A stretch of DNA of 38,421 nt. Origin: Clostridia bacterium. Its GTDB lineage: Bacteria > Bacillota > Clostridia > Oscillospirales > Acutalibacteraceae. The stretch covers positions 1 through 38,421 of the forward strand of contig JAFQKB010000060.1 of assembly GCA_017397125.1 (NCBI GenBank), in the 5' to 3' direction. Numbering within the stretch: position 1 is the stretch's first letter; each line of letters begins with the position of its first letter. The notes beneath the pieces are model-generated. The model made no database searches, was not told the DNA's origin, and saw only the letters and a list, made by a program, of their open reading frames with translations. The position numbers and the translations under genes are program-made. Of the stretch, positions 4,263 to 28,138 are shown one piece after another.

Positions 4263-4611
4263 GGGGGCGTAAAGGTTTCGACGGGGATCGTGAGGTACGG
4301 TAAGCGAGTAGTGGCGTTGGACCACTATAAAACCGACAAACTAAACAATAAACGACAACTCTAAAGTTGCTCTGGCGGCTTAATTAAGCCGCCCGTCCTG
4401 CCCCGGAGTACCGCGACCGGGAGCGGGGCGTCGATCAGCGGTGAACGTGAACGGAGGGGTGCCACCCCCACCGTCACGGCGTAGTGGCTACCGTAGCGCA
4501 TAGCCTGCCGACCGGCGATGCGTGAGGGGAATCCCAAAAGACCGGCTGCACTCGGAGAAAGCTGTATCAAGTGGTTTTCGGACGCGGGTTCGATTCCCGC
4601 CGCCTCCACCA
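4263..4611 (+). ncRNA. ssrA: tmRNA (transfer-messenger RNA)
   Basis: A 349-base tmRNA that rescues stalled ribosomes together with SmpB. The 5' end GGGGGCGUAAAGGUUUCGAC pairs through GGGGGCG with the 3' acceptor strand CGCCTCC, followed by discriminator A and encoded CCA (4609-4611). The T arm GCGGGTTCGATTCCCGC is intact. The tag reading frame ends N-S-K-V-A-L-A-A then TAA at 4381-4383, followed by another in-frame stop. The resume codon is not an obvious GCN. GAC at 4354 after TAAAC gives DNSKVALAA, and this is my preferred reading. The pseudoknot-rich middle spans roughly 4370-4560. Minus-strand ORFs across this gene are artefacts. Confidence 0.97.
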
Positions 4612-5991: not shown

Positions 5992-5999
5992 ACCAACAA

Positions 6000-6161
6000 G
6001 CGTAGAGGTGCGGGGTGCATCAGTAGCCGGGGCAGCGTGCGGAATACACGCCGGTGAAAGGGCACTCCGCCGAAATCCGCAGACGGTTTCCGCCGGCTGG
6101 GGGTTGGGCTGCGGCAGAATATGCCGCAGACTGTCACAAGTTGTTTGTGGAGAGCTACCGC
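6000..6161 (+). promoter_or_regulatory. Lysine riboswitch (L box) aptamer
   Basis: Conserved lysine-aptamer blocks occur in the right order: GTAGAGGTGC at the 5' side of P1/P2, CAGTAGCC, GGTGAAAGGG, CGCCGAA, CCGGCTGGG, GACTGTCAC and GTGGAGAGCTACC closing P1. An exceptionally stable P5 arm (GCGGCA...TGCCGC) is present. It lies between a consensus promoter and an intrinsic terminator, so high lysine should stabilise the aptamer and promote termination before the transporter gene. Confidence 0.93.
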
Positions 6162-6178
6162 CTGTTGCCGTGCTGTTT

Positions 6179-6231: not shown

Positions 6232-7935
6232 ATGAACAAGAAAATAATCATCCGCAACAGCATCGTGGTCGGCCTGATGCTGGTTGTGGTGGCGGTGCTG
6301 GCCTTCACGATGCAGGGCGAGCACAACCTGAAGTGCGACGAGTGCTCCGGCGCCGGCATCGTGGACGGCGCGGCCTGCGAATTCTGCGTGGACGGCGTCA
6401 CCGACACCCCCGCCGACAGCAAATACTACGGCACCGTGGTGGCTCTGGCACCTCCGGTCATTGCCATCGTGCTGGCGCTGATCACCAAAGAGGTGTACAG
6501 TTCTCTGTTCATCGGTATCGTGGCGGGCGCCCTGTTCTATTCCAATTTTGACGTGGTTGGCGCGGTCAACGCCATTGTCAACGACGGCATCATCGCCAAC
6601 GTGGCGGACACCTGGAACGCCGGTATCCTGGTATTCCTGGTGCTGCTGGGCATTATGGTGGCGCTGGTCAATTCCGCCGGCGGCTCCGCCGCCTTTGGCC
6701 GCTGGGCTCAGACCCACGTCAAGACCCGGGCCGGCGCTATGCTGGCCACCTTTGCCCTGGGCGTGCTGATCTTCATTGACGACTATTTCAACTGCCTGAC
6801 CGTGGGCAGCGTGATGCGTCCCGTCACCGACGGTCACAAGATCTCCCGTGCCAAGTTTGCCTATATCATCGACTCCACCGCGGCCCCCATCTGCATGATC
6901 GCCCCCATCTCCTCCTGGGCGGCGGCGGTGGCCGGCGTGGTGGGCGAGGAGAACGGTCTGGGTTATTTCATCCAGGCCATCCCCTATAATTTCTATTCTC
7001 TGCTGACCATCGTCACTGTGCTCGCCATTTCGGTGCTGAAGTTCGACTTTGGTCCCATGCGCCGTCACGAGCTCAACGCCCTGGCCGGGGATCTGTTCTC
7101 CGCAAACAGTCAGGTGGAGGGCGACGACGAGGCGGTCTCCTCCAAGGGCCGCGTCATCGACCTGATCCTGCCGGTGGTGGTGCTGATCGTCTGCTGCGTG
7201 CTGGGTATGATCTACACCGGCGGCTTCTTCGACGCCGAGAGCGGCGCTTATCTCAATCTGGTCACCGCCTTCAGCGGCTGTGACGCCGCCGCCGGCCTGT
7301 CCTGGGGCGCGCTGATCGCCTTGATCGCGACCGTGCTGTACCTGATGGCCCGCCGGGTGATCTCCTTTAAGACCGCTATGGAGGCCATCCCCAAGGGCTT
7401 CAAGGCCATGGTGCCCGCCATCATCATCCTGGTGTTCGCCTGGTCTCTGGGCGGCATCACCCGCGGTATGCTGGGCGCGGACATCTTTGTTAAGGAAGCC
7501 ATCGGCGCCAGCGCCGATGCCCTCCAGGCCCTTCTGCCGGCGGTCATCTTCCTGATCGCGCTGGGTCTGTCCTTTGCCACCGGTACCTCCTGGGGCACCT
7601 TCGGCATCCTGCTGCCCATCGTCATCACCGTGTTTGCCGGTGCCGGCGAGATCCTGATCATCGCCATGTCCGCCTGCCTGGCCGGTGCGGTGTGCGGCGA
7701 CCACTGCTCGCCCATCTCCGACACCACCATTATGGCGTCGGCCGGTGCCCAGTGCAACCACGTCAACCACGTGTCCACCCAGCTGCCCTATGCGCTGACG
7801 GTGGCGGGTGTGTCGGTGGTGGCCTACGTCCTGGCCGGCTTTATCCAGAACTGGCTGATCGTGCTGCCCATCGCCATCGTGCTGATGGTGGCTACGCTGC
7901 TGGTCATTAAGGCGGCTATCGCTAAAAAAGCCTAA
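6232..7935 (+). CDS. NhaC-family transporter under lysine riboswitch control
   Basis: A 567-residue polytopic membrane protein of the NhaC Na+/H+ antiporter family (COG1757), with about a dozen hydrophobic helices and the conserved patches IFIDDYFNCLTVGSVMRP and CGDHCSPISDTTIMAS. Members placed behind lysine riboswitches have been proposed to move lysine rather than only Na+/H+. Here the riboswitch makes lysine transport the best guess, import being favoured because lysine would shut the gene off. After the first helix (residues 8-27), a short loop contains CDECSGAGIVDGAACEFC (Cys35, 38, 49, 52), a rubredoxin/DnaJ-like zinc-knuckle pattern. I do not recall this as a core part of the family. 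The ATG follows GAGGAAGGG. A terminator follows 18 bases after the stop, so it is monocistronic. Confidence 0.88.
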   Translation: MNKKIIIRNSIVVGLMLVVVAVLAFTMQGEHNLKCDECSGAGIVDGAACEFCVDGVTDTPADSKYYGTVVALAPPVIAIVLALITKEVYSSLFIGIVAGALFYSNFDVVGAVNAIVNDGIIANVADTWNAGILVFLVLLGIMVALVNSAGGSAAFGRWAQTHVKTRAGAMLATFALGVLIFIDDYFNCLTVGSVMRPVTDGHKISRAKFAYIIDSTAAPICMIAPISSWAAAVAGVVGEENGLGYFIQAIPYNFYSLLTIVTVLAISVLKFDFGPMRRHELNALAGDLFSANSQVEGDDEAVSSKGRVIDLILPVVVLIVCCVLGMIYTGGFFDAESGAYLNLVTAFSGCDAAAGLSWGALIALIATVLYLMARRVISFKTAMEAIPKGFKAMVPAIIILVFAWSLGGITRGMLGADIFVKEAIGASADALQALLPAVIFLIALGLSFATGTSWGTFGILLPIVITVFAGAGEILIIAMSACLAGAVCGDHCSPISDTTIMASAGAQCNHVNHVSTQLPYALTVAGVSVVAYVLAGFIQNWLIVLPIAIVLMVATLLVIKAAIAKKA

Positions 7936-19130: not shown

Positions 19131-20054
19131 TTATTTATGATACACGCTGTCTCCGATGAACTCCCGGATGAGGGCGGTGTCGGGCACGGCAGCGGCATCC
19201 AGGGGGTCGGCGGCGGTCAGCACCGGCAGCATGCCGGCGATCTCCGGCCGGTCGGCCAGAGCCTGCAGATCCCCCAGCAGATACTTTGCGTATACGTTGA
19301 TCTCGTAGGGGAAGAAGGTGTCCACGTCAAAGGTGGAGCGGTGCTTGTAGGGCATGATGAAATTGTCCTCGCCCCGGTTGACGCTGTGGAACATCTGGAG
19401 GGTGTCCGCCGCCTGGCGGCCCCGATGCTGCACGTCCCGGAGCATCCGCCGCAGCAGCCGGATGTACTTGGGGTGCAGGACGGTGCCGTCCGGACCCTCC
19501 ACCCGGGTGCGCACGCTGACGTACAGCCGCACCGTCTGCTCCGGCGGCAGGGTGATCACCGCCGGGTTGAGGGCGTGGATGCCCTCCAGCACCACCACCT
19601 CGCCCGGCTTGCGATGCAGTATCTTGCCGGACATCTCCCGGGTGTGGGTGCGGAAGTTGAATACCGGCAGCTCCACCGGCTCGCAGGCGATGATGGCCCG
19701 CAGCTGCTCGGTGAGCAGCTCGCCGTCCACCCGGTCGGGGGACTCCAGGTCCAGCTTTTCCTCTGCCACCAGGGCGTGCTGCTCCGGGGTGAGGGTGCGG
19801 AAATAATTGTCCATAGACAGGGTGTGGGTCTCCAGCCCGCGCCGGTCCAGCTTATCCTCCAGGATCAGGGCGGAGGTGGTCTTTCCGGACCCGGAGGGGC
19901 CGGAGAGCAGCACCAGCGGGCACTGCCGGCTGTGGGCGGCTACGAAATCGGCGATGTCGGACAGCTGCCGGTGATAGTTCTTTTCCGCCCCGTCGATGAA
20001 GCCGGCGGCATCCGCCGCCAGGCTGCGGTTGATATCGGTCATTTTACGGATCAT
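19131..20054 (-). CDS. Nucleoside (uridine kinase-like) kinase
   Basis: A 307-residue P-loop kinase of the uridine kinase/phosphoribulokinase superfamily. Walker A is LLSGPSGSGKTTSALIL (about 50-66). SMDNYFR and the lid-like HTREMSGKILHRKPGEVVVLEGIHALNP are characteristic of Udk-like nucleoside kinases. The protein is longer than Udk itself (about 210 residues) and lacks the TGS/threonyl-tRNA-synthetase-like N-terminus of the 550-residue clostridial form. It resembles the shorter clostridial nucleoside kinase. Expected role is salvage phosphorylation of a pyrimidine nucleoside. ATG 20054 follows AAAGGAGTG; the frame's earlier codons overlap the end of the preceding RNase gene. It is 16 bases downstream of that gene and co-transcribed. 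Confidence 0.85.
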   Translation of the reverse strand: MIRKMTDINRSLAADAAGFIDGAEKNYHRQLSDIADFVAAHSRQCPLVLLSGPSGSGKTTSALILEDKLDRRGLETHTLSMDNYFRTLTPEQHALVAEEKLDLESPDRVDGELLTEQLRAIIACEPVELPVFNFRTHTREMSGKILHRKPGEVVVLEGIHALNPAVITLPPEQTVRLYVSVRTRVEGPDGTVLHPKYIRLLRRMLRDVQHRGRQAADTLQMFHSVNRGEDNFIMPYKHRSTFDVDTFFPYEINVYAKYLLGDLQALADRPEIAGMLPVLTAADPLDAAAVPDTALIREFIGDSVYHK

Positions 20055-20070
20055 ACAGACACTCCTTTCC

Positions 20071-21678
20071 TCAGCGATCCCATTTATCGGCCAGCGACTG
20101 GACCTGACTGGCAAAGCGGGCCAGGTCCTTGTTGGTGCCGCCGCGGTTTTTCTCGATGACCGCCATCAGTCGGCGGCCGGCATCCAGCAGCCGCTGGAAC
20201 ACAGCGGACACAGAGCCGGCCTGGGTCCGCTTGGCGGCCCGGGCCATCCGGGTGGTGAAGCCCTCCTGCAGGCACACCCCGGTGGCCAGGTCGTAAATAG
20301 CGTTGTTATAGGGCGCCACGGTGTCCAGCCCCAGGGTGCCGGCGATGGTGGCGGCAAAGGTGTCGCACACCGTGTCGCCGCCGTGGTTGACAAACACCCG
20401 GCGGGGCTTGGCCGGCAGGTCCCGCAGCCACGCCAGCATCCTGTCCCGGTCGGCGTGACCGCTGATGCCGTTGAGGTTCTCAATGTGGGCGTGCACCTGG
20501 ATCTCCTCGCCGAACAGCTTGACGGTGGGGGCGCCGTCGATGAGCTTGCGGCCGATGGTGCCCTCGGACTGGTAGCCCACAAAGAGGACGGTGCTCTCCG
20601 GCCGCCACAGATTGTGCTTGAGATGGTGGCGGATGCGGCCCGCCTCGCACATGCCGGAGGCGGACAGGATCACCTTGGGCGTCTTGTCAAAATTGATGGC
20701 CCGGGAATCGTCGCTGGTGACCGACAGATTCAGATTGGGCAGGCGGATGGGGTTCTCCCCTGCCACCAGCAGGGCCAGGGTCTCCTCGTCGTAATAGTCG
20801 GTCAGGCCGGCGGAATAGATGTTGGTGGCCTCCACCGCCAGGGGGCTGTCCACCCATACGGGAAAATCTCCGTGGCCGTGGACGAGTCCCTCCTTTTTGA
20901 TCTGCCGCAGCAGATACAGCAGCTCCTGGGTGCGGCCCACCGCAAAGGCGGGGATCACCACGTTGCCGCCCCGGTCAAAGGTCTCCTGCAGGATGCGGGT
21001 CAGCTGGGCCACGTAGTCCGGGCGCTCCCCGTGGAGCCGGTCGCCGTAGGTGGACTCGATGACCACGTAGTCGGCGGCGGGCGGGGTCTGGGGGTCCCGG
21101 ATGAGGGGACGGGTGACGTTGCCCAGGTCGCCGGAGAACAGCACCGTCTCGCTCTGTCCGTCCTCGGTGACGGTGACCGAGATGGAGGCGGAGCCCAGCA
21201 GATGCCCCGCATCGGTAAAGCGCACCGTCACGTCGTCAAAAAGGCGGTATTCGGTATCGTAGTCGCAGGGGTTTAGCTGGGTCAGGGTGCGGCTCACGTC
21301 CTCGGCGGTGTACAGGGGCACGTAGGGGTCGCCGCCGTTACGCTTGGCCTTGCGGTTGCGCCACTCCGCCTCAAACTCCTGGATGTGGGCGGAGTCCATC
21401 AGCATGATGCGGCACAGGGCGGCGGTGGCGGCGGTGGTGTAGATGGGTCCCGTAAAGCCCCGGGCCACCAGCATGGGGATGCGGCCGGAGTGGTCGATGT
21501 GGGCGTGGGTGAGCAGCACCGCGTCGATGTCCCCGGGCAGCAGGGGCAGGTCGGGGTTTTCATACATATCCGCCCCCTGCTCCATACCGCAGTCGACGAG
21601 GATGCGGTGGTGCCGGGTGGTCAGCAGGGTGCAGGAGCCGGTCACCTCGTGGGCAGCGCCTAAAAAGTGCAGTTTCAT
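20071..21678 (-). CDS. Beta-CASP metallo-beta-lactamase RNase
   Basis: A 535-residue two-domain RNase of the YSH1/CPSF73-like bacterial group. The metallo-beta-lactamase core has THAHIDHSG (58-65) for two zinc ions, the Asp/His pair LFSGDLGN, and FTDAGHLLGSASI. The beta-CASP insert shows VWVDSPLAVEAT, SASGMCEAGRIRHHL and the terminal ISGHADRDRML. It lacks the RNase J C-terminal domain. These proteins degrade or process RNA; the exact target is unknown. The ATG at 21678 follows AAAGGGG and starts the conserved MKLHFLGAAHEVTGS; 34 upstream codons of open frame are discarded because they run through the predicted promoter. It is divergent from the dehydrogenase gene. Confidence 0.93.
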   Translation of the reverse strand: MKLHFLGAAHEVTGSCTLLTTRHHRILVDCGMEQGADMYENPDLPLLPGDIDAVLLTHAHIDHSGRIPMLVARGFTGPIYTTAATAALCRIMLMDSAHIQEFEAEWRNRKAKRNGGDPYVPLYTAEDVSRTLTQLNPCDYDTEYRLFDDVTVRFTDAGHLLGSASISVTVTEDGQSETVLFSGDLGNVTRPLIRDPQTPPAADYVVIESTYGDRLHGERPDYVAQLTRILQETFDRGGNVVIPAFAVGRTQELLYLLRQIKKEGLVHGHGDFPVWVDSPLAVEATNIYSAGLTDYYDEETLALLVAGENPIRLPNLNLSVTSDDSRAINFDKTPKVILSASGMCEAGRIRHHLKHNLWRPESTVLFVGYQSEGTIGRKLIDGAPTVKLFGEEIQVHAHIENLNGISGHADRDRMLAWLRDLPAKPRRVFVNHGGDTVCDTFAATIAGTLGLDTVAPYNNAIYDLATGVCLQEGFTTRMARAAKRTQAGSVSAVFQRLLDAGRRLMAVIEKNRGGTNKDLARFASQVQSLADKWDR

Positions 21679-21738
21679 ACAGATTTCCCCTTTCCGTGTA
21701 GTGTATGTAGTCCCGGTGGGCATTAGTCCTTTGGTGAT

Positions 21739-21767
21739 AGTATAGCATATTTTTTCCGTGGTGAAAA
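21739..21767 (-). promoter_or_regulatory. Promoter for RNase-kinase operon
   Basis: Minus strand TTTTCA, 17-base spacer, TATACT with TGC extended -10. It is back-to-back with the dehydrogenase promoter, the two -35 elements being 7 bases apart. Confidence 0.65.
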
Positions 21768-21774
21768 GAGGGAA

Positions 21775-21803
21775 TTGCATCGAGGGTAAAAATGTGGTAT
21801 GCT
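21775..21803 (+). promoter_or_regulatory. Promoter for D-2-hydroxyacid dehydrogenase gene
   Basis: TTGCAT, 17-base spacer, TATGCT, 24 bases before the start codon. Confidence 0.65.
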
Positions 21804-21827
21804 ACCTAGTGAAATGGAGGGATGTGC

Positions 21828-22772
21828 ATGCATATCGTAGTGACCGATGCCGAGACCGTGGTGGGTGGCGGCATCGACGTAGAGTTTCTGAAAGAATTCG
21901 GCCAGGTGACGGTGTACGACCTGACCGTCCCGGAGCAGCTGATCCCCCGTCTGCAGGATGCGGACGCGGTGGTCTGCAACAAGACCCGCATCACCGCCGA
22001 TGTGATGGCGGTCTGCCCGCGGCTTAAATACATCGGTCTGTTTGCCACCGGATTTAATAACATCGACGTAGCCTATGCCGCCGCCCACGGGGTGACGGTG
22101 TGCAACGTGCCGGGCTATTCCACCGAGGCGGTGGCCCAGCACACCTTTGCGCTCTTGTTGGCCATCACCGATCGGGTGCACGAGTATAACGACACCGTGG
22201 CCCAGGGGGACTGGGTCCGCAGCCGCACCTTTGCCTATTTTCCCATCCCTCTCACCGAATTATGCGGCAAGACCATGGGCATCGTGGGCTACGGCGCCAT
22301 CGGCCGCCGGGTGGGGGATATGGCCCGGGCCTTTGGGATGCGGGTGCTGGTTCATGGACGCCGTCCCATCCCGGATACGGACGTGGAGCAGGTGCCTTTT
22401 GAGCAGCTGCTGGAGCGGGCGGACGTGGTCAGCATGCACTGTCCCCTCAATGCCGACAGCGAGGGCATGATGGACGCCGCCGCCTTTGCCAGAATGAAGA
22501 AGGGGGCTATATTCATCAACACCTCCCGGGGCGGACTGGTGGACGAGCAGGCTCTGCGGGCGGCGCTGGACAGCGGCCACCTGATGGGAGCCGGTGTGGA
22601 CGTGCTGCAGGTGGAGCCCATGACCGAGGATTGTCCCCTGTACGGTGCGCCTCGGTGTGTCATCACTCCCCATATCGCCTGGGCGGGGGTGGAGACCCGC
22701 CGCCGCCTGATGGGGGTGGTGGCGGAGAATATCCGCCGCTATCTGGCAGGAGATCCAATTAATCGGGTGTAA
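21828..22772 (+). CDS. D-2-hydroxyacid dehydrogenase (glycerate dehydrogenase-like)
   Basis: A 314-residue NAD(P)-dependent D-2-hydroxyacid dehydrogenase. The Rossmann loop is GIVGYGAIGRRVG (151-163). The catalytic triad is visible: Arg234 in INTSRGGLVDE, Glu263 in DVLQVEPM, His282 in ITPHIAW. It reduces a 2-keto acid such as hydroxypyruvate or glyoxylate to the D-hydroxy acid; substrate is not determinable. ATG 21828 is six bases after GGAGGG, while ATG 21822 abuts it. Codons 307-313 end in A or T, unlike the strong GC3 bias of the rest of the gene. A second copy of codons 292-314 with GC3 codons occurs at 25004-25075, implying that the present 3' end arrived with an insertion. Confidence 0.93.
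   Translation: MHIVVTDAETVVGGGIDVEFLKEFGQVTVYDLTVPEQLIPRLQDADAVVCNKTRITADVMAVCPRLKYIGLFATGFNNIDVAYAAAHGVTVCNVPGYSTEAVAQHTFALLLAITDRVHEYNDTVAQGDWVRSRTFAYFPIPLTELCGKTMGIVGYGAIGRRVGDMARAFGMRVLVHGRRPIPDTDVEQVPFEQLLERADVVSMHCPLNADSEGMMDAAAFARMKKGAIFINTSRGGLVDEQALRAALDSGHLMGAGVDVLQVEPMTEDCPLYGAPRCVITPHIAWAGVETRRRLMGVVAENIRRYLAGDPINRV
22701..22772 (+). repeat. 72-bp direct repeat, left copy (inside dehydrogenase gene)
   Basis: Matches 25004-25075 at 65 of 72 positions. A 34-base identical core (22717-22750) holds the dyad GGCGGA-GAATA-TCCGCC. Differences to the right of the core are five synonymous third-position changes plus TAA versus TGA. Confidence 0.95.
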
Positions 22773-22775
22773 TGC

Positions 22776-22800
22776 GTAGGGGCGGCAGGGTCGCCCCTAC
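22776..22800. terminator. Hairpin after dehydrogenase gene
   Basis: Perfect 9-bp stem GTAGGGGCG / CGCCCCTAC with a 7-base loop, 3 bases after the stop codon. There is no clean T tract directly after it, so termination is uncertain; it may be a dispersed palindrome. Confidence 0.5.
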
Positions 22801-22907
22801 ATTCTTGTTTTCAATGCTATGTGAATTCACAGGGGTCCTCGTAATCAAGCAAACGGATCGTTCAACAGAAATAAACCAATGGTTGACGACACTTTTCCTG
22901 TTATGCG

Positions 22908-22935
22908 TTGACAATTGGTCGGTTTATGCTATACT
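22908..22935 (+). promoter_or_regulatory. Strong promoter for the ATPase transcription unit
   Basis: TTGACA (22908-22913), 16-base spacer, TATACT (22930-22935) with a TGC extended -10. The upstream part of the gap (22801-22907) is AT-rich and shows nothing else. Confidence 0.85.
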
Positions 22936-22980
22936 GGTTACATAATTTCCTACCCATTTTTGTAAAAGGAGGCGATGACT

Positions 22981-23034
22981 ATGACCATCACTTATATTTA
23001 TCGGATGTGGTCTGCATCGCCTGCTGTGCGCTGA
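22981..23034 (+). CDS. Leader peptide ORF (17 residues)
   Basis: A 17-codon ORF, MTITYIYRMWSASPAVR, with an excellent ribosome binding site (AAAAGGAGGCGATGACT before ATG), better than that of the downstream gene. Codons 7-10 (TAT CGG ATG TGG) cover the segment 23000-23009, which is exactly complementary to the 5' arm of the following terminator. Ribosome position on this ORF should therefore decide whether the terminator or the antiterminator forms. There is no run of one amino acid, so sensing of a single charged tRNA is unlikely. Ribosome stalling by an inhibitor or a general slowdown fits better. Confidence 0.65.
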   Translation: MTITYIYRMWSASPAVR

Positions 23035-23086
23035 GCTCAATAGGTTTATCGTTTATGAAACACATCCGATCTCGGGTGTGTTTTTT
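23000..23086 (+). promoter_or_regulatory. Attenuator: antiterminator/terminator switch
   Basis: Segment 23000-23009 (ATCGGATGTG) is a perfect complement of 23061-23070 (CACATCCGAT). The latter also forms the 5' arm of an intrinsic terminator, 23058-23068 with 23073-23083 and a 4-base loop, ending in a T tract. The two structures exclude each other. Confidence 0.7.
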
Positions 23087-23105
23087 CTTTTGCTGTTTTA
23101 GAGGG

Positions 23106-23131
23106 GCACCCGTAGGGGTGCTTTTTGTTTT
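23106..23131 (+). terminator. Second leader terminator-like hairpin
   Basis: Stem GCACCC / GGGTGC (23106-23111 with 23116-23121) followed by TTTTTGTTTTT. Weaker than the attenuator terminator but in tandem with it, upstream of the ATPase start. Confidence 0.6.
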
Positions 23132-23191
23132 TCGTGGAGAGTTCTCGAATATGAGTAAAACGGAAAATTCACAACGAAAGAGGGAATTCTT

Positions 23192-25003
23192 ATGAAACGA
23201 TTAAAATGCAAATTGTTATCGATGGACACCACCACCACTACGTATAACGCCATCTACGAGGGCAGTATGTTGGTTCAAGATCCGTCCCATCCGTCTTTGG
23301 AACCCTATATGGATTATAACGCCACCTACTATTATGAGGATGTGGGCTTTGAGATCACTACTACCCATAAACTGGCACAGGACAGACCCACGGTCGTCAT
23401 TAATATACCGTGCGAAAAAATAGGGTTGGACTTGCCTGAAAAACCGGTGCGAAACGCAGTGGCGGACTTTTGCTTGCGCACGTTCCGGAAGCATATCGAT
23501 GAGTTAAACGCAGATCTTTATAATCGTAGCCGCCCCGATAACGAAAGCGGAAAGTATTACTTTTGCACTCCTGGTGGAGAGGTTTTGCAACGCAACACAG
23601 CCTTTTTTGCTTTGTGCCCGCCAAAGGACTATGAGAACGGGTCAGGTTTTACCGTTTCTTTGTTACCTGAGGGGGTAGCCGGGCCGCCTCGTTGGTGTCT
23701 TTGTTTTCGGGTGCAGGTGCAATTGCCGCGGCGCAATCTCCGCAAGGCGGTGCAGATGATGTGCCGTGACCTGCCGGATGCGGTGGAACGGTTTGTAAAG
23801 CATCTGAACAGGAACGAATTGGAGCAGACTGTTCAACTCGCACACAAACAGGCGGCTATTCGCACATGGTTGAAGGATAGTAACTATTGCGCATTTGTGG
23901 CCAATGGTAGCATTCTCCCTCGGGCAAAAGAAGGTGACAAGCCAATGGCAGGTGCAGTTCCGTTCCGATCCACAGCGGAGGATGAGATTGAGATTTGCGG
24001 TGTGAAGGGAATGGGTTTCAAAAGAGGTGTTACCGTTATTACCGGCGGCGGCTACTCAGGAAAATCCACCTTGTTAGATGCGCTGTCCGCCGGTATCTAC
24101 GACCACGCCCTCGGTGATGGACGGGAGCTGTGTATTACCGATAGCACTGCGGCCACCATCTCTGCCGAGGACGGACGGAGCGTAAAGCATGTTAATATTT
24201 CTCCTTTTATTCGCTGGTTGCCCGGTGGCGATACGCACGATTTCTCTACTGCACACGCCTCAGGTTCCACCTCTCAGGCGACCAATATCATGGAGGCGGT
24301 GGAAAGCGGCGCCAAGTTGTTGCTTATTGATGAGGACAGAAGCGCTACCAATTTTATGATACGAGACGGGATGATGAAAGAGTTGATTGAAAAAGAGCCC
24401 ATTACCCCTTTCACCGATCGCGTGAGAGAACTGTGCCGACACAGTGGTGTGTCCACCATCTTGGTCATCGGCGGTAGCGGTGAGTATCTGTCGGTGGCAG
24501 ACAAAATTTACAAGATGGAGGATTATCGTGTCTATGATGTTACTCAAAAGGCCAAATGCATCTGCGCCTCCCACGGCGTTGCCGTTGATCCGCCCATACA
24601 GGCGGATTGGGCACAGCGTCGATGCTTGTATGCGGACGGATTTTCTTCCTTTCCTGCAGGGAGTGGGACGGAACGGCTGTCGGTATCGGATATGGGGATG
24701 ATCTCGATTGGAGATGAGAGAATCGACGTTCGAGGACTGCATGACATTATTTCTTTCCGCCAGTTGGAAACCTTGGGCTTTATGTTGCGTCATTTGGAGA
24801 TCACCAACAAGGACAGAAAAATAGATATCCACAAGAGAATAGACGATCTGTACGCTCGCGTTGAGAAGGATGGATTAGACTTTCTGTACTCCTCATTTTT
24901 CACCACCTGTGGCAGGTTTCTTGACCTCCCCCGTAAGCAGGAGTTGTTGGCAGTGATTTATCGCATGCGAAACATTCATATAGCAAAGAAAAAGGAGGCG
25001 TAG
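23192..25003 (+). CDS. ABC-class ATPase (PF09818/COG3044-like)
   Basis: A 603-residue soluble protein matching the predicted ATPases of the ABC class. An N-terminal domain of about 250 residues (with DYNATYYYEDVGFEI and a helical part to YCAFVANGSILPR) precedes the ATPase core. Walker A is TGGGYSGKSTLLDAL near residue 285, a signature-like ASGSTSQATN lies near 355, and Walker B LLLIDEDRSATNFMIRD near 377. The C-terminal 100 residues form a helical domain. There are no membrane segments, so this is not a transporter subunit. Function is uncharacterised as far as I know; COG3044 was only ever a predicted ATPase. ATG follows AAAGAGGG. It is the only large gene of the inserted segment and its TAG abuts the right direct repeat. 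Confidence 0.9.
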   Translation: MKRLKCKLLSMDTTTTTYNAIYEGSMLVQDPSHPSLEPYMDYNATYYYEDVGFEITTTHKLAQDRPTVVINIPCEKIGLDLPEKPVRNAVADFCLRTFRKHIDELNADLYNRSRPDNESGKYYFCTPGGEVLQRNTAFFALCPPKDYENGSGFTVSLLPEGVAGPPRWCLCFRVQVQLPRRNLRKAVQMMCRDLPDAVERFVKHLNRNELEQTVQLAHKQAAIRTWLKDSNYCAFVANGSILPRAKEGDKPMAGAVPFRSTAEDEIEICGVKGMGFKRGVTVITGGGYSGKSTLLDALSAGIYDHALGDGRELCITDSTAATISAEDGRSVKHVNISPFIRWLPGGDTHDFSTAHASGSTSQATNIMEAVESGAKLLLIDEDRSATNFMIRDGMMKELIEKEPITPFTDRVRELCRHSGVSTILVIGGSGEYLSVADKIYKMEDYRVYDVTQKAKCICASHGVAVDPPIQADWAQRRCLYADGFSSFPAGSGTERLSVSDMGMISIGDERIDVRGLHDIISFRQLETLGFMLRHLEITNKDRKIDIHKRIDDLYARVEKDGLDFLYSSFFTTCGRFLDLPRKQELLAVIYRMRNIHIAKKKEA

Positions 25004-25075
25004 CGCCGCCTGATGGGGATGGTGGCGGAGAATATCCGCCGCTATCTGGCAGGGGACCCCATCAACCGGGTGTGA
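25004..25075 (+). pseudogene. Displaced 3' end of the dehydrogenase gene (right repeat)
   Basis: Encodes RRLMGMVAENIRRYLAGDPI and then NRV-stop, the last 23 codons of the dehydrogenase with a single V-to-M change. There is no start codon of its own. Its final codons end in G or C (GGG GAC CCC ATC AAC), matching host codon bias, which marks it as the original gene end. It begins directly after the ATPase stop codon. Confidence 0.9.
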
Positions 25076-25232: not shown

Positions 25233-25268
25233 GTCCGCCTTTAGCAAATGACGTCGCGCATAGCAACG

Positions 25269-25303
25269 AAAAAGCCGACCCAACGATTGTTGGGCCGGCT
25301 TTT
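25269..25303 (-). terminator. Intrinsic terminator of rny
   Basis: Stem of 15 pairs with one mismatch (25269-25284 with 25289-25303), loop GATT, T-rich 3' side on the minus strand, 10 bases past the rny stop. Confidence 0.9.
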
Positions 25304-25313
25304 ACAATGCCTG

Positions 25314-26894
25314 TTATTTCGCGTAGTCCACGGCGCGGTTCTCGCGGATGAGGTTGACCTTGATCTGACCGGGATAGTCCATATTGGTCTCGATCTTCTG
25401 GGCGATCTCCCGGGCGAGAATGATCATCTGGTCGTCGTTGACCTTGTCGGGACGGACGATGATGCGCACCTCGCGTCCGGCCTGGATGGCGAAGGAGTTC
25501 TCCACGCCCTCAAAGCTGTTGGCCAGCTCCTCCAGTTTCTCCAGACGCTTGATGTAGTTCTCCAGGTTCTCGCGGCGGGCGCCGGGGCGGGCGGCGGAGA
25601 TGGCGTCGGCCGCCTGTACCAGGCAGGCCACCACCGTCTGGGCCTCCACGTCGCCGTGGTGGGCCTGGATGGCGTGCACCACAGCCTCGCTCTCTTTATA
25701 CTTGCGGGCGATGTCCACACCGATCTCGATGTGGCTGCCTTCCACCTGGTGGTCCACCGACTTACCGATGTCGTGCAGCAGACCGGCGCGGCGGGCGATC
25801 TCGGGGTCAATGCCCAGCTCGCTGGCCATGATGCCGGAGAGGAAGGCCACCTCCATAGAGTGCTGCAGCACGTTCTGACCGTAGCTGGTGCGGTAGTGCA
25901 GACGACCCAGCAGCTTGACGATCTCGGGATTGATGCCCCGCAGACCGGTCTCCAGAATGGCGCGCTCGCCCTCTGCCTTGATGGTCTGTTCCACGTCGCG
26001 GCGGGCCTTGTTGACCATCTCCTCGATGCGGGCGGGGTGGATACGGCCGTCGGCGATCAGCCGCTCCATGGCGATGCGGGCGATCTCGCGGCGCACCGGG
26101 TCAAAGCCGGAGAGGGTGATGGCCTCGGGGGTATCGTCGATGATGAGGTCGATGCCGGTCAGGGTCTCGATGGCCCGGATGTTGCGGCCCTCGCGGCCGA
26201 TGATGCGGCCCTTCATCTCGTCATTGGGCAGCGGCACCACCGATACGGTGGTCTCGGCCACCTGGTCGGCGGCCACCCGCTGGATGGCGTGGGAGATCAG
26301 GGTGCGGGCGCGCTGGTCGGCGTCCGCCTTGAGCTGGGTCTCGAATTCCGCCATCTTGACGGCCTTTTCGTGCTCCAGCTCCTGGCTCAGGCTGTTGAGC
26401 AGGTATTCCTTAGCCTGTTCCTGGGTAAAGCCGGACAGGCGCTCCAGCAGCTCGTACTGGCTCTTCTTGAGGGCCTCGGCATCCGCCATGCGGGCCTCCA
26501 CCTCTTTGATGCGGTCAGCCAGCTTTTCTTCTTTTTTCTCGTAGTTTTCGATCTTGCGGTCCAGAGACTCCTCTTTCTGGTGCAGACGGTTCTCCTGGCG
26601 CTGCACGTCGGCGCGGCGCTCTTTGATCTCCTTGTCCGACTCGTTGCGCAGACGGTAGATCTCGTCCTTAGCCTTGACCAGAGCCTCTTTCTTGCTGGAT
26701 TCGGCCTGCTGCCGGGCGTCCTTGAGGATGCGCTCGGCCTCCGCCTCGGCAGAGCCGATGGCGGCCTCAGCCACCTTTTTGCGGTGGTTGATACCGGCGC
26801 GATAGGCGACCAGGCCGGCGACCAATGCGCCGATAGCCAATGCGCCCACACCGATGCCCAATGCCACCAGCAAGGAAACAGTCATCGTTAACAT
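25314..26894 (-). CDS. rny: Ribonuclease Y
   Basis: A 526-residue RNase Y, the membrane-anchored endonuclease that initiates mRNA decay in Firmicutes. Order: N-terminal transmembrane helix (about 5-29), a long coiled coil (about 35-200, rich in Glu/Lys/Arg/Gln), the KH domain with [15 protein letters not shown], then the HD domain with [11 protein letters not shown] metal ligands, and the C-terminal domain ending [14 protein letters not shown]. Length matches the usual 510-530. ATG 26894 lies six bases after GGAGGTG and starts the membrane helix; 22 upstream open codons are not used. A long hairpin-rich leader with an internal terminator precedes it. RicT, a specificity factor for this enzyme, is encoded at 14199. 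Confidence 0.96.
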
Positions 26895-27157
26895 GGGATA
26901 CACCTCCGTTTTTTGTTCGTTTGCGGTACAAAAGGCGATCCCGTGGGGGACTTTTTTCAATTTTCAAAGCACAGATACACCCGTATGTGGACGGGCAGGC
27001 GTATGTCCATATCAAAAAAAGCACGTAGCCCCCGTGGGGCCGCCATGAAACGATTAACAATCTCTACCGCAGAGTCTGCGGTACAAAATGCCCACCGGCT
27101 GTGCAGCCGGGGATGGTGCAGGCATAGGGTATGCCTCGAAATGCCTAAATACCACCG
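26895..27157 (-). promoter_or_regulatory. Structured rny 5' leader
   Basis: The untranslated leader of about 260 bases holds, in transcription order, AGGCATA/TATGCCT (27120-27136), CCGGCT/AGCCGG (27095-27110), ACCGCAGA/TCTGCGGT (27066-27082) and a terminator (27047 down to 27014). None matches a riboswitch class I can name. No T-box AGGGTGGNACCGCG element is present. Confidence 0.6.
27014..27047 (-). terminator. Intrinsic terminator inside rny leader
   Basis: On the minus strand, an outer CATG/CGTG and inner GGCCCC/GGGGCT stem around ACG, followed by C and seven T (27014-27020). It lies 120 bases upstream of the rny start, so it can only act as an attenuator. Confidence 0.65.
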
Positions 27158-27163
27158 CATACT

Positions 27164-27193
27164 ATATTACACCATTTGATAAGTATTTGTCAA
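27164..27193 (-). promoter_or_regulatory. Promoter for rny
   Basis: Minus strand TTGACA (perfect), 18-base spacer, TAATAT. Confidence 0.75.
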
Positions 27194-27316
27194 GTGCAAT
27201 TACCAAAATTTGAGAGTTCTGCCTGGGTTTGCCGGGTGGGAAATGCCGCACCCCGGGTGACGGAGCGCATACATTGTTAAAAGGAGAGCGATACGCGGCA
27301 GAAAGGGTGTAGGACA

Positions 27317-28138
27317 ATGGCGGTATTGAGCGTAGAGGGCGTGCGGCAGGTGTACCAGTCTCCGGCGGGGGAGACGGTGGCCCTGCAGGATATCAGTTTT
27401 ACAATGGAAAAGGGGGATTTCTTCAGCCTGGTCGGCCCCAGCGGCTGTGGAAAATCCACCCTGCTGTCCATCATCGCCGGCACCCTGCGGCCCACCGCCG
27501 GCCGGGTGACGGTGGCCGGAGAGGAGGTCACCGGCCCCAACCCCCACATCGGGTATATGCTGCAGCAGGACAATCTGCTGGAGTGGCGCAGCATCCGGCA
27601 GAACGTGCTGTTCGGCCTGGAGATCCGCCACCAGCTGACCCCGGAGCTGCGGGACCGGGCGGACCATCTGCTGGAGACCTACGGCCTGGCGGAGTTTGCA
27701 AACAGCCGTCCCTCCCAGCTGTCCGGCGGCATGCGGCAGCGGGTGGCACTGATCCGTACCCTGGCGGTGGGGCCGGACATCCTGCTGTTGGACGAGGCCT
27801 TTTCCGCCCTGGACTACCAGACCCGGATGGAGGTCACCGAGGACGTCTACGGCATCATCCGGCGGGAACAGGTCACCGCCCTGATGGTCACCCACGACAT
27901 TGCCGAGAGCATCTGTATGGGGGATCAGGTGCTGATCCTGTCCCCCCGCCCCGCGGTGATACGGGAGACCCTGCCCATCACCTTTGACCTGCCGGTGCGC
28001 ACCCCGTTGCGCTGCCGGGGCTGCCCCGCATTCGCCTCCTATTTCGATCATATATGGAAGGAATTGGGGATGCATGAAACAGACAGCGATCCATCCGGCT
28101 CTCTCGCCGGAGAGAGCCCTGTATCTGCGGCAGAATAG
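27317..28138 (+). CDS. ABC importer ATPase (SsuB/TauB/ThiZ type)
   Basis: A 273-residue ABC ATPase. Walker A is VGPSGCGKSTLL (39-50), the Q loop is YMLQQDNLL, the signature is LSGGMRQRVALIRTLA, Walker B is ILLLDEAFSALD and the switch His is in VTHDIAESI. Sequence features such as ADHLLETYGLAEF and ILSPRPAVIRETLPI place it with nitrate/sulfonate/taurine and thiamine-precursor importers. It energises the permease and binding protein encoded next. The ATG has only a weak AGG upstream. The 3' end overlaps the permease start by 65 bases, implying coupling. The gene is divergent from rny, and no convincing promoter could be identified for it. Confidence 0.92.
   Translation: MAVLSVEGVRQVYQSPAGETVALQDISFTMEKGDFFSLVGPSGCGKSTLLSIIAGTLRPTAGRVTVAGEEVTGPNPHIGYMLQQDNLLEWRSIRQNVLFGLEIRHQLTPELRDRADHLLETYGLAEFANSRPSQLSGGMRQRVALIRTLAVGPDILLLDEAFSALDYQTRMEVTEDVYGIIRREQVTALMVTHDIAESICMGDQVLILSPRPAVIRETLPITFDLPVRTPLRCRGCPAFASYFDHIWKELGMHETDSDPSGSLAGESPVSAAE

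Follow-up and report, generated by a model that had tools for sequence, protein, structure and literature searches.

Three transcription attenuators with a short upstream open reading frame (uORF) are, as far as the cited portions of their descriptions go, the closest counterparts of the element reported here. In vmlR of Bacillus subtilis, which encodes an ABC-F protein, a uORF of three codons (MIN) with its own Shine-Dalgarno (SD) sequence is combined with a 5′ anti-antiterminator hairpin, an antiterminator and an intrinsic terminator. Induction follows when a ribosome is arrested during initiation at the uORF, and formation of the antiterminator also favours a second rearrangement downstream, which frees the SD sequence of the main gene (PMC9226507). 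The hflXr/rli80 system of Listeria monocytogenes likewise comprises an attenuator with a short uORF and an anti-antiterminator; its target acts on the ribosome without being an ABC-F protein, and the 14-residue leader peptide carries the macrolide-arrest motif RLR (PMC6310831). In cplR of C. difficile, a 5′ hairpin sequesters the uORF, arrest likely occurs just past initiation and transcription ends prematurely; the uORFs of cplR and LsaA encode tri- or tetrapeptides (MRI; MAGN for LsaA), and the terminator hairpin of cplR also hides the main SD sequence (PMC10201436). Here we describe a 38,421-nucleotide stretch of DNA from a Clostridia bacterium of the Acutalibacteraceae (contig JAFQKB010000060.1), referred to as the window, in which a leader with comparable elements precedes a gene for an ABC-class ATPase of the PF09818 family. 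Judged from its sequence, this leader very probably attenuates transcription through the ribosome in the manner of vmlR, and the PF09818 ATPase would be made upon arrest of a ribosome on the first codons of the uORF.

The unit begins with a sigma-A-type promoter (22908–22935; all features given here lie on the + strand of the window), which agrees with the consensus at 11 of 12 positions (TTGACA, 16 nt, TATACT) and is extended by a TG before the second hexamer; similar boxes are seen by eye 5′ of homologous leaders. It is followed by the SD region of the uORF (AAAGGAGG, 22965–22977) and by the uORF itself, which spans 17 codons (MTITYIYRMWSASPAVR, 22981–23034, with the ATG at 22981 and the stop codon at 23032–23034). 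A second in-frame ATG is located at 22975, and the start at 22981 matches the position common to most homologues. Within the uORF, segment A (ATCGGATGTG, 23000–23009), the 5′ strand of the antiterminator, is the exact reverse complement of segment B (CACATCCGAT, 23061–23070). Segment B is common to the antiterminator helix A:B and to terminator T1 (B:C, 23057–23084, located by a terminator scan), the 3′ arm of which is segment C. The 5′ arm of terminator T2 (23101–23126) is segment D (about 23101–23113), complementary to C with a C:D energy of −15.0 kcal/mol. In addition, AGGCGATG (22970–22977) pairs with an anti-SD strand within the uORF (23015–23022) to give helix H0 (duplex −18.1 kcal/mol), the putative anti-antiterminator, which hides the uORF SD sequence. 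The ATPase gene, coding for 603 amino acids with an MRB1590_C domain, occupies 23192–25003, and its SD sequence seems, by eye, weaker than AAAGGAGG. An initial annotation made from the letters alone had claimed a consensus-like promoter, a 17-codon leader with a better ribosome binding site than the main gene, the exact 10-base complement with B also in the 5′ arm of T1, and a second terminator-like hairpin. All four are found, and H0, the C:D pairing and a flanking 70-bp direct repeat extend its description. By eye, a conserved stretch follows T2 in the window (about 23127–23192) and in homologues (GTTTTTCGTGG ... GAATATAAGT ... ACGGAAAAT), which could form a further hairpin.

From this anatomy we infer the following course of termination and read-through. 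In the absence of arrest, the uORF would be translated, or its SD sequence folded into H0, leaving A covered or trapped; T1 and then T2 would form and transcription would stop. H0 would in this way keep an untranslated leader in the OFF state. A ribosome held on the first uORF codons would instead block H0 and leave A free past its leading edge. A would then pair with B, T1 could not form, and the freed 3′ arm of T1 could pair with the 5′ arm of T2, so that both terminators would be disarmed and the PF09818 ATPase made. The trigger proposed is the one described for vmlR, whereas the leader differs from vmlR in the length of the uORF (16–25 codons in the 28 leaders compared below), in the position of H0 on the uORF's own SD sequence (the vmlR SD lies outside SL-1), in a second layer which would disarm a second terminator in place of freeing the main SD sequence (PMC9226507), and in its target. 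Unlike in cplR, the terminator hairpin does not hide the main SD sequence, and in contrast to hflXr there is no conserved peptide motif, the distance from the start codon being fixed instead.

The terminators alone are weak evidence, since the terminator scan over both strands of 2.8 kb returned 6 sites, with 2.9 expected from shuffles (sd 1.7). Such a local abundance of hairpins would suit two ordinary terminators with a chance complementarity and no regulation. This explanation is hardly credible in view of the promoter-like site found 3′ of the upstream gene and 5′ of the terminators, the direct repeat on either side of the unit, and the covariation of H0, A:B and C:D (in 28, 28 and 25 leaders, respectively). 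Pairing of the native uORF with the 5′ arm of T1 was equalled by none of 300 shuffled uORFs. The whole 194-nt leader folds 4.9 sd better than its shuffles; folding of the part ending at 23070 is not exceptional (z −1.2; equalled by 24 of 200 shuffles). Among Rfam families no match of the leader reached the gathering score, the best of 11 matches with E≤10 scoring 20.4 bits against a cut-off of 50.

Conservation was assessed among homologous genes, with L and G plus a number denoting loci and genomes. Exact peptide patterns, scanned over one genome each of 84,980 species (GTDB), returned 12 loci, one of which (L022) was set aside as it starts too near the contig end. A covariance model, R1, matches upstream of the gene in all 11 testable loci. 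The matches are weak for L019, L020 and L023 (25–33 bits), and those of L013, L014, L021 and L024, four of the 11, are given by construction, as R1 was built from them together with L004 and the window, whose own match is given in the same way. L019 also contains, at 1250–2974, a PF09818-like paralogue (by eye) directly 5′ of the full-length gene, behind one weakly scoring leader. At E≤1e-30, a protein search of the order (394 genomes) gave matches in 40 genomes. Of the 27 places belonging to this PF09818 branch, L044 was left out because it has almost no upstream DNA. The search of PF09818 homologues for similar leaders, proposed in the initial annotation, located them by R1 (E<0.02) upstream of 20 of the 26 testable homologues, window included, and by hand, as a uORF with a terminator, in the other six (L058–L062 and L064). 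On these six, a second model, R2, gave weak matches for L064, L058, L059 and L060 (E 0.001–0.03), E 0.8 for L062 and no match at the right place for L061. L058, L059, L060 and L064 are predicted to form an SD helix and an A:B helix (−9.8 kcal/mol or better); all four, like L147, are divergent leaders assessed without a shuffle control. At the canonical-type PF09818 loci L005, L006 and L010 neither model matched, and at L066 weak matches were confined to the other strand. Ten weak matches of the first model (29–34 bits) resemble, by eye, ordinary terminators. By sequence and conservation, a uORF with an SD sequence lies between promoter and terminator.

For pairing tests 33 leaders were taken and reduced to 28 by dropping the near-identical L024, L040, L053, L054 and L056; L016 never entered, being near-identical to kept ones. 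R2 was built from 26 of them, with L020 and L023 omitted. H0 (SD with uORF) and A:B (uORF with the 5′ arm of T1) are present in all 28 leaders and C:D in 25, the number in which a second terminator is annotated; some terminators of the set were placed by hand. Compensatory changes are evident in A:B (CGGATGT/ACATCCG in the window, CAGGTGT/ACACCTG in L013, CGGATAT/ATATCCG in L051) as well as in C:D (CGGGTGT/GCACCCG in the window, CGGATGTGC/GCACATCCG in L051). In all three helices (28 leaders for H0 and A:B, 25 for C:D) the mean native pairing exceeds all 20,000 random re-pairings. In reduced sets of 17, 17 and 15 leaders, which were picked by the author as visibly distinct, 0, 0 and 1 of 20,000 re-pairings equal the native value. 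In an alignment of H0 and T1, double changes occur in 14 of 16 pairs (H0 7/7, T1 7/9 model pairs) and 93.9% of the cells are paired, values reached by none of 500 shuffles, although fitting the alignment to the structure biases the result in this direction. By its own terms, the initial annotation would have been refuted had the complementary segments not been conserved at homologous loci; they are both conserved and covarying. In silico, antiterminator and terminator share one strand (A:B versus B:C), as expected of an attenuator, and H0 is predicted to act as an anti-antiterminator displaced by the arrested ribosome, with weak pairing in some leaders.

The position of segment A relative to the start codon is nearly constant. 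A pattern covering its variants finds the A element in 27 of 28 leaders (not in L020), and in 25 of these 27 it starts 17–21 nt past the first base of the start codon; the exceptions are L023 (25 nt) and L046 (56 nt, probably a wrong pick). The downstream edge of ribosomes stalled at a start codon is reported at +16 to +18 (PMC12121999, in part) and the vmlR toeprint at 16 nt from the A of the start codon (PMC9226507), and the A element accordingly sits just past a start-codon-arrested ribosome. It occurs in all three reading frames (16, 5 and 6 of 27, with L046 in the last group), which argues that the RNA and not the peptide is kept.

Folding of RNA ending at the 5′ arm of T1, before its 3′ arm is made, gives the probability that B is paired upstream. 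In the window this value is 0.05 without a ribosome and rises to 0.78, 0.78 and 0.71 with the P site on codons 1, 2 and 3; it is 0.03–0.14 on codons 4–13, 0.23 on codon 14 and 0.59–0.75 from codon 15 to the stop codon. The attenuator reading of the initial annotation is upheld, and for the window the folding favours arrest on codons 1–3 or in the vicinity of the stop codon over arrest at any place in the reading frame. Over the 28 leaders the mean is 0.43 without a ribosome, 0.78, 0.76, 0.45 and 0.26 on codons 1–4 and 0.12–0.16 on codons 9–13. When a ribosome occupies the start codon, the value is at least 0.5 in 26 of 28 leaders, compared with 27% of 336 controls with shuffled interior; in 21 of 28, compared with 12% of controls, it falls by 0.4 or more once the ribosome has reached codon 8 or 10. 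This profile also bears on an amino-acid-starvation attenuator, in which slow decoding of Tyr or Ile codons in the uORF would permit read-through. Tyr is indeed found at codon 5 in 17 of 28 uORFs and Ile at codon 6 in 10 of 28. However, a ribosome on codons 4–8 covers A, with a probability of about 0.05 in the window, the Pfam domains are not those of a biosynthetic gene, and most codons are not kept, since the element is read in three frames; starvation sensing is very unlikely.

Leaders of this kind were also found in front of other genes. R2, run on the 394 genomes of the order at E≤5e-4, matches 31 places in 30 genomes, 20 of which are known leaders of this PF09818 branch, most of them within the model. 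The other eleven comprise two in front of distant PF09818 genes (G839 and G794, 44% and 42% identity to the window protein), two in front of ABC-F genes, five without an intact target (G689, G725, G876, G757 and G050) and two that look false (G637 and G659). Among the five, a PF09818 remnant is recognized by profile in G689 and by eye, having been missed by profile, in G725; G876 and G757 show none, and the match in G050 is leader-like and lies at a contig end. At the level of loci, leaders without intact PF09818 behind them are L084, L085, L088 and L092, with a remnant in L085 (by profile) and L088 (by eye). Among 157 genomes of the class, a single additional match, in a genome of another family (G248), precedes a distant PF09818 gene. 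Restriction of the leader to the close PF09818 branch was considered and ruled out, as three more distant PF09818 genes bear it.

In G780 the leader (45.7 bits), which resembles those of G839 and G794, ends 60 nt 5′ of an ABC-F gene whose product passes the NCBIfam Lsa cut-off (762 versus 750 bits). In G840 a leader of 80.4 bits, in which 22 nt separate the start codon from the element, is followed after about 460 nt by an Lsa-like ABC-F gene (702.9 bits, under the Lsa cut-off and over the general ribosomal-protection cut-off); this genome also bears a leader-PF09818 unit on another contig. The G840 case is the weaker one because of this distance and of a promoter-like sequence, noted by eye, just 5′ of the ABC-F gene. 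A related leader type is thus present on ribosome-protection genes, in G780 and less surely in G840. The proposal of the initial annotation that the ATPase may be a translation-stress or ribosome-targeted factor gains independent support, since leaders of the same model family precede Lsa-type ABC-F genes in two genomes; that the protein acts on ribosomes we only infer. The related leaders support, without proving, a response to ribosome-arresting antibiotics. Many other Lsa-type ABC-F genes of the order have, by eye, a different leader with a short uORF (MRNFSC*, MINFSCK* and others; for example L105, L107, L109, L111, L114, L115 and L118).

Several observations weigh against the proposed attenuator or limit its generality. 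The swap statistics ignore phylogeny and hold on average, not for each leader. Many foreign partners outpair the native one in H0 of L013, L023 and L028, in A:B of L028 and L048, and in C:D of L041, L042 and L049, and shuffles equal H0 in 41% of cases for L023 and in 10–20% for L013, L028, L043 and L049. A:B of L020 is unconvincing (−6.4 kcal/mol, with 66% of shuffles as good), and that of G839 reaches just −6.0 kcal/mol. C:D may partly be a by-product of T2 copying T1. In several leaders B already pairs upstream when no ribosome is present (mean 0.43, as given above; L019 0.89, L004 0.85). In G780 and in G794, the distance between start codon and A-like segment is 39 and 37 nt, outside the spacing of 17–21 nt, and the ribosome effect in G780 is weaker (0.50 without a ribosome, about 0.76 on codons 1–6 and 0.10 on codons 14–16). 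An Lsa-type gene is present in 60 of 245 genomes of the order, and the leader precedes only 1 of the 30 best Lsa-type loci tested (that of G780), two of which (L125 and L132) have less than 60 nt before the open frame. Finally, in equilibrium folding T1 and T2 beat A:B in most leaders, window included, even when the start codon is occupied by a ribosome; only L014, L015, L017 and L018 flip clearly (L018 with or without a ribosome), and L039 and L055 do so in part. Because the terminators win at equilibrium once T1 is complete, the switch must be kinetic, i.e. the order of formation matters. Formation order has likewise been argued for vmlR in the cited part of its description (PMC9226507).

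The 603-residue protein scores 341.9 bits with PF09818 (cut-off 23.2) and 47.4 bits with MRB1590_C (cut-off 27). The motifs GGGYSGK[ST]T, DED.SATNFM and ASGS[TV]SQA, which we take to be the Walker A, Walker B and signature motifs, are present in 20 of 20 aligned proteins. Residues 184–529 match PDB entries 4yj1, 4yix and 4yiy (kRNA editing protein), presumably MRB1590 of Trypanosoma brucei, and entry 5d6a ('predicted ATPase of the ABC class') also matches (E 6e-73 to 2e-72); the N-terminal part lies outside this match. An N-terminal module of about 85 residues, single in the window, is tandemly duplicated in 14 of 40 loci scanned (L014, L019, L020, L023, L041, L043, L045, L046, L050, L051, L057, L060, L062 and L064). 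A separate gene for the N-terminal copy was ruled out, as the tandem module lies within one reading frame. No NCBIfam family, ABC-F resistance models included, matched the protein at E≤1e-10, so that it does not group with the antibiotic-resistance ABC-F proteins (ARE-ABCF), and PADLOC gave no match for it. Searches of plasmids and phages yielded relatives below 60% identity only, and the two inspected gave no lead. In the open-access literature, to which the searches were confined and in which absence is weak evidence, the sole family member whose role has been described is MRB1590, the RNA-editing factor of trypanosomes. No title there reports a functional study of PF09818, and titles on MRB1590 are mostly kinetoplastid. 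The phrases 'ABC-ATPase domain-containing protein' and 'MRB1590_C' returned nothing, and 'ATPase of the ABC' combined with antibiotic and ribosome led, in the excerpts returned, only to Bifidobacterium genes induced in mice.

A basic patch follows the motif Q[LF]P in 19 proteins of the branch, with Arg-Arg in few; its position is inferred from the PDB match, and the pattern caught another QLP in L046. MRB1590 is, in the cited part of its description, an ABC-class ATPase with N- and C-terminal domains as well, but it is a mitochondrial RNA-editing factor with two invariant pore arginines in place of the variable basic patch (PMC4538832). Since MRB1590 binds RNA (PMC4538832), a protein or ligand, perhaps the ATPase itself, might bind the leader and control termination, with the uORF being incidental. 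Control of this type is distinctly unlikely, as loops and peptide vary while the uORF, its SD sequence and the spacing between start codon and A are kept, and as related leaders serve unrelated ABC-F proteins.

Leader and gene together look like a transferable single-gene module. Promoter, leader and gene (22771–25003) are bracketed by a 70-bp direct repeat, the first copy of which (22701–22770) lies at the 3′ end of a 2-hydroxyacid dehydrogenase gene (Pfam) and the second of which (25004–25073) is 91% identical to it. GC content inside the unit is about 42–53%, compared with 57–68% at 20000–22749 and 57–67% at 25250–26999; it drops to 53–55% again at 26750–27499. The same-genus genome G520 retains the two flanking genes, at 75% and 83% identity, and has different DNA in between. 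The right-hand one is, as we presume by eye, RNase Y-like. The ATPase homologue was not found in two same-genus genomes, nor the leader by R1 in four. Neighbours at ten other loci, compared by eye, are partly shared among L015, L016 and L018 and between L021 and L024, and differ in the rest. It is on repeat, low GC content, G520 flanks, same-genus absences and varied neighbours that the appearance of a module is based. Elsewhere, Rfam places a tmRNA gene (4263–4611) and a lysine riboswitch aptamer (5995–6165) in the window, and L023 contains ten overlapping repeat copies with 48-nt spacing inside a predicted reading frame (6754–7423).

As to the inducer, drugs which trap ribosomes at or just after initiation, i.e. 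pleuromutilins, lincosamides and streptogramin A (PLSA), are the likely candidates, and tetracyclines are possible ones. PLSA drugs stall ribosomes at initiation, and LsaA is modelled as acting on the initiation complexes stalled by them, as stated in the cited part of the report (PMC8196190). A role of the ATPase in the response to PLSA-type drugs is proposed because a leader tuned to start-codon arrest fits the LsaA model and because HflXr provides a precedent; a response to start-codon arrest is the likely role of the protein. The logic of the leader needs only a ribosome parked on the first codons, and inducers of E. coli toiL come from several drug classes, with tetracycline and retapamulin acting at the start codon according to the cited portion of its description (PMC12121999). 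The leader might accordingly be a general sensor of slow initiation, caused by tetracycline, initiation-factor or cold stress, and the ATPase a general translation-stress factor without PLSA specificity. We consider this somewhat doubtful, as the related leaders on Lsa-type ABC-F genes favour PLSA drugs, though in two genomes only.

Tentatively, and at somewhat less than even odds, the branch may represent an unrecognised class of antibiotic-induced ribosome protection or rescue ATPases in Clostridia, which would not be ABC-F proteins, would possibly bind RNA and would be mobile together with their own sensor of start-codon arrest, of a kind shared with Lsa-type ABC-F genes. The sensor would be a five-segment relay (A:B and C:D versus B:C and D:E), by which one ribosome controls two terminators. 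If real in vivo, this double-terminator relay would be a compact route to a sharper OFF state. The leader, which has no Rfam match, can be used for finding further arrest-induced genes. A leader of the drug-responsive type gives the bacterial PF09818 family a testable function and suggests a possible, hitherto unrecorded answer to ribosome-targeting drugs in Clostridia.

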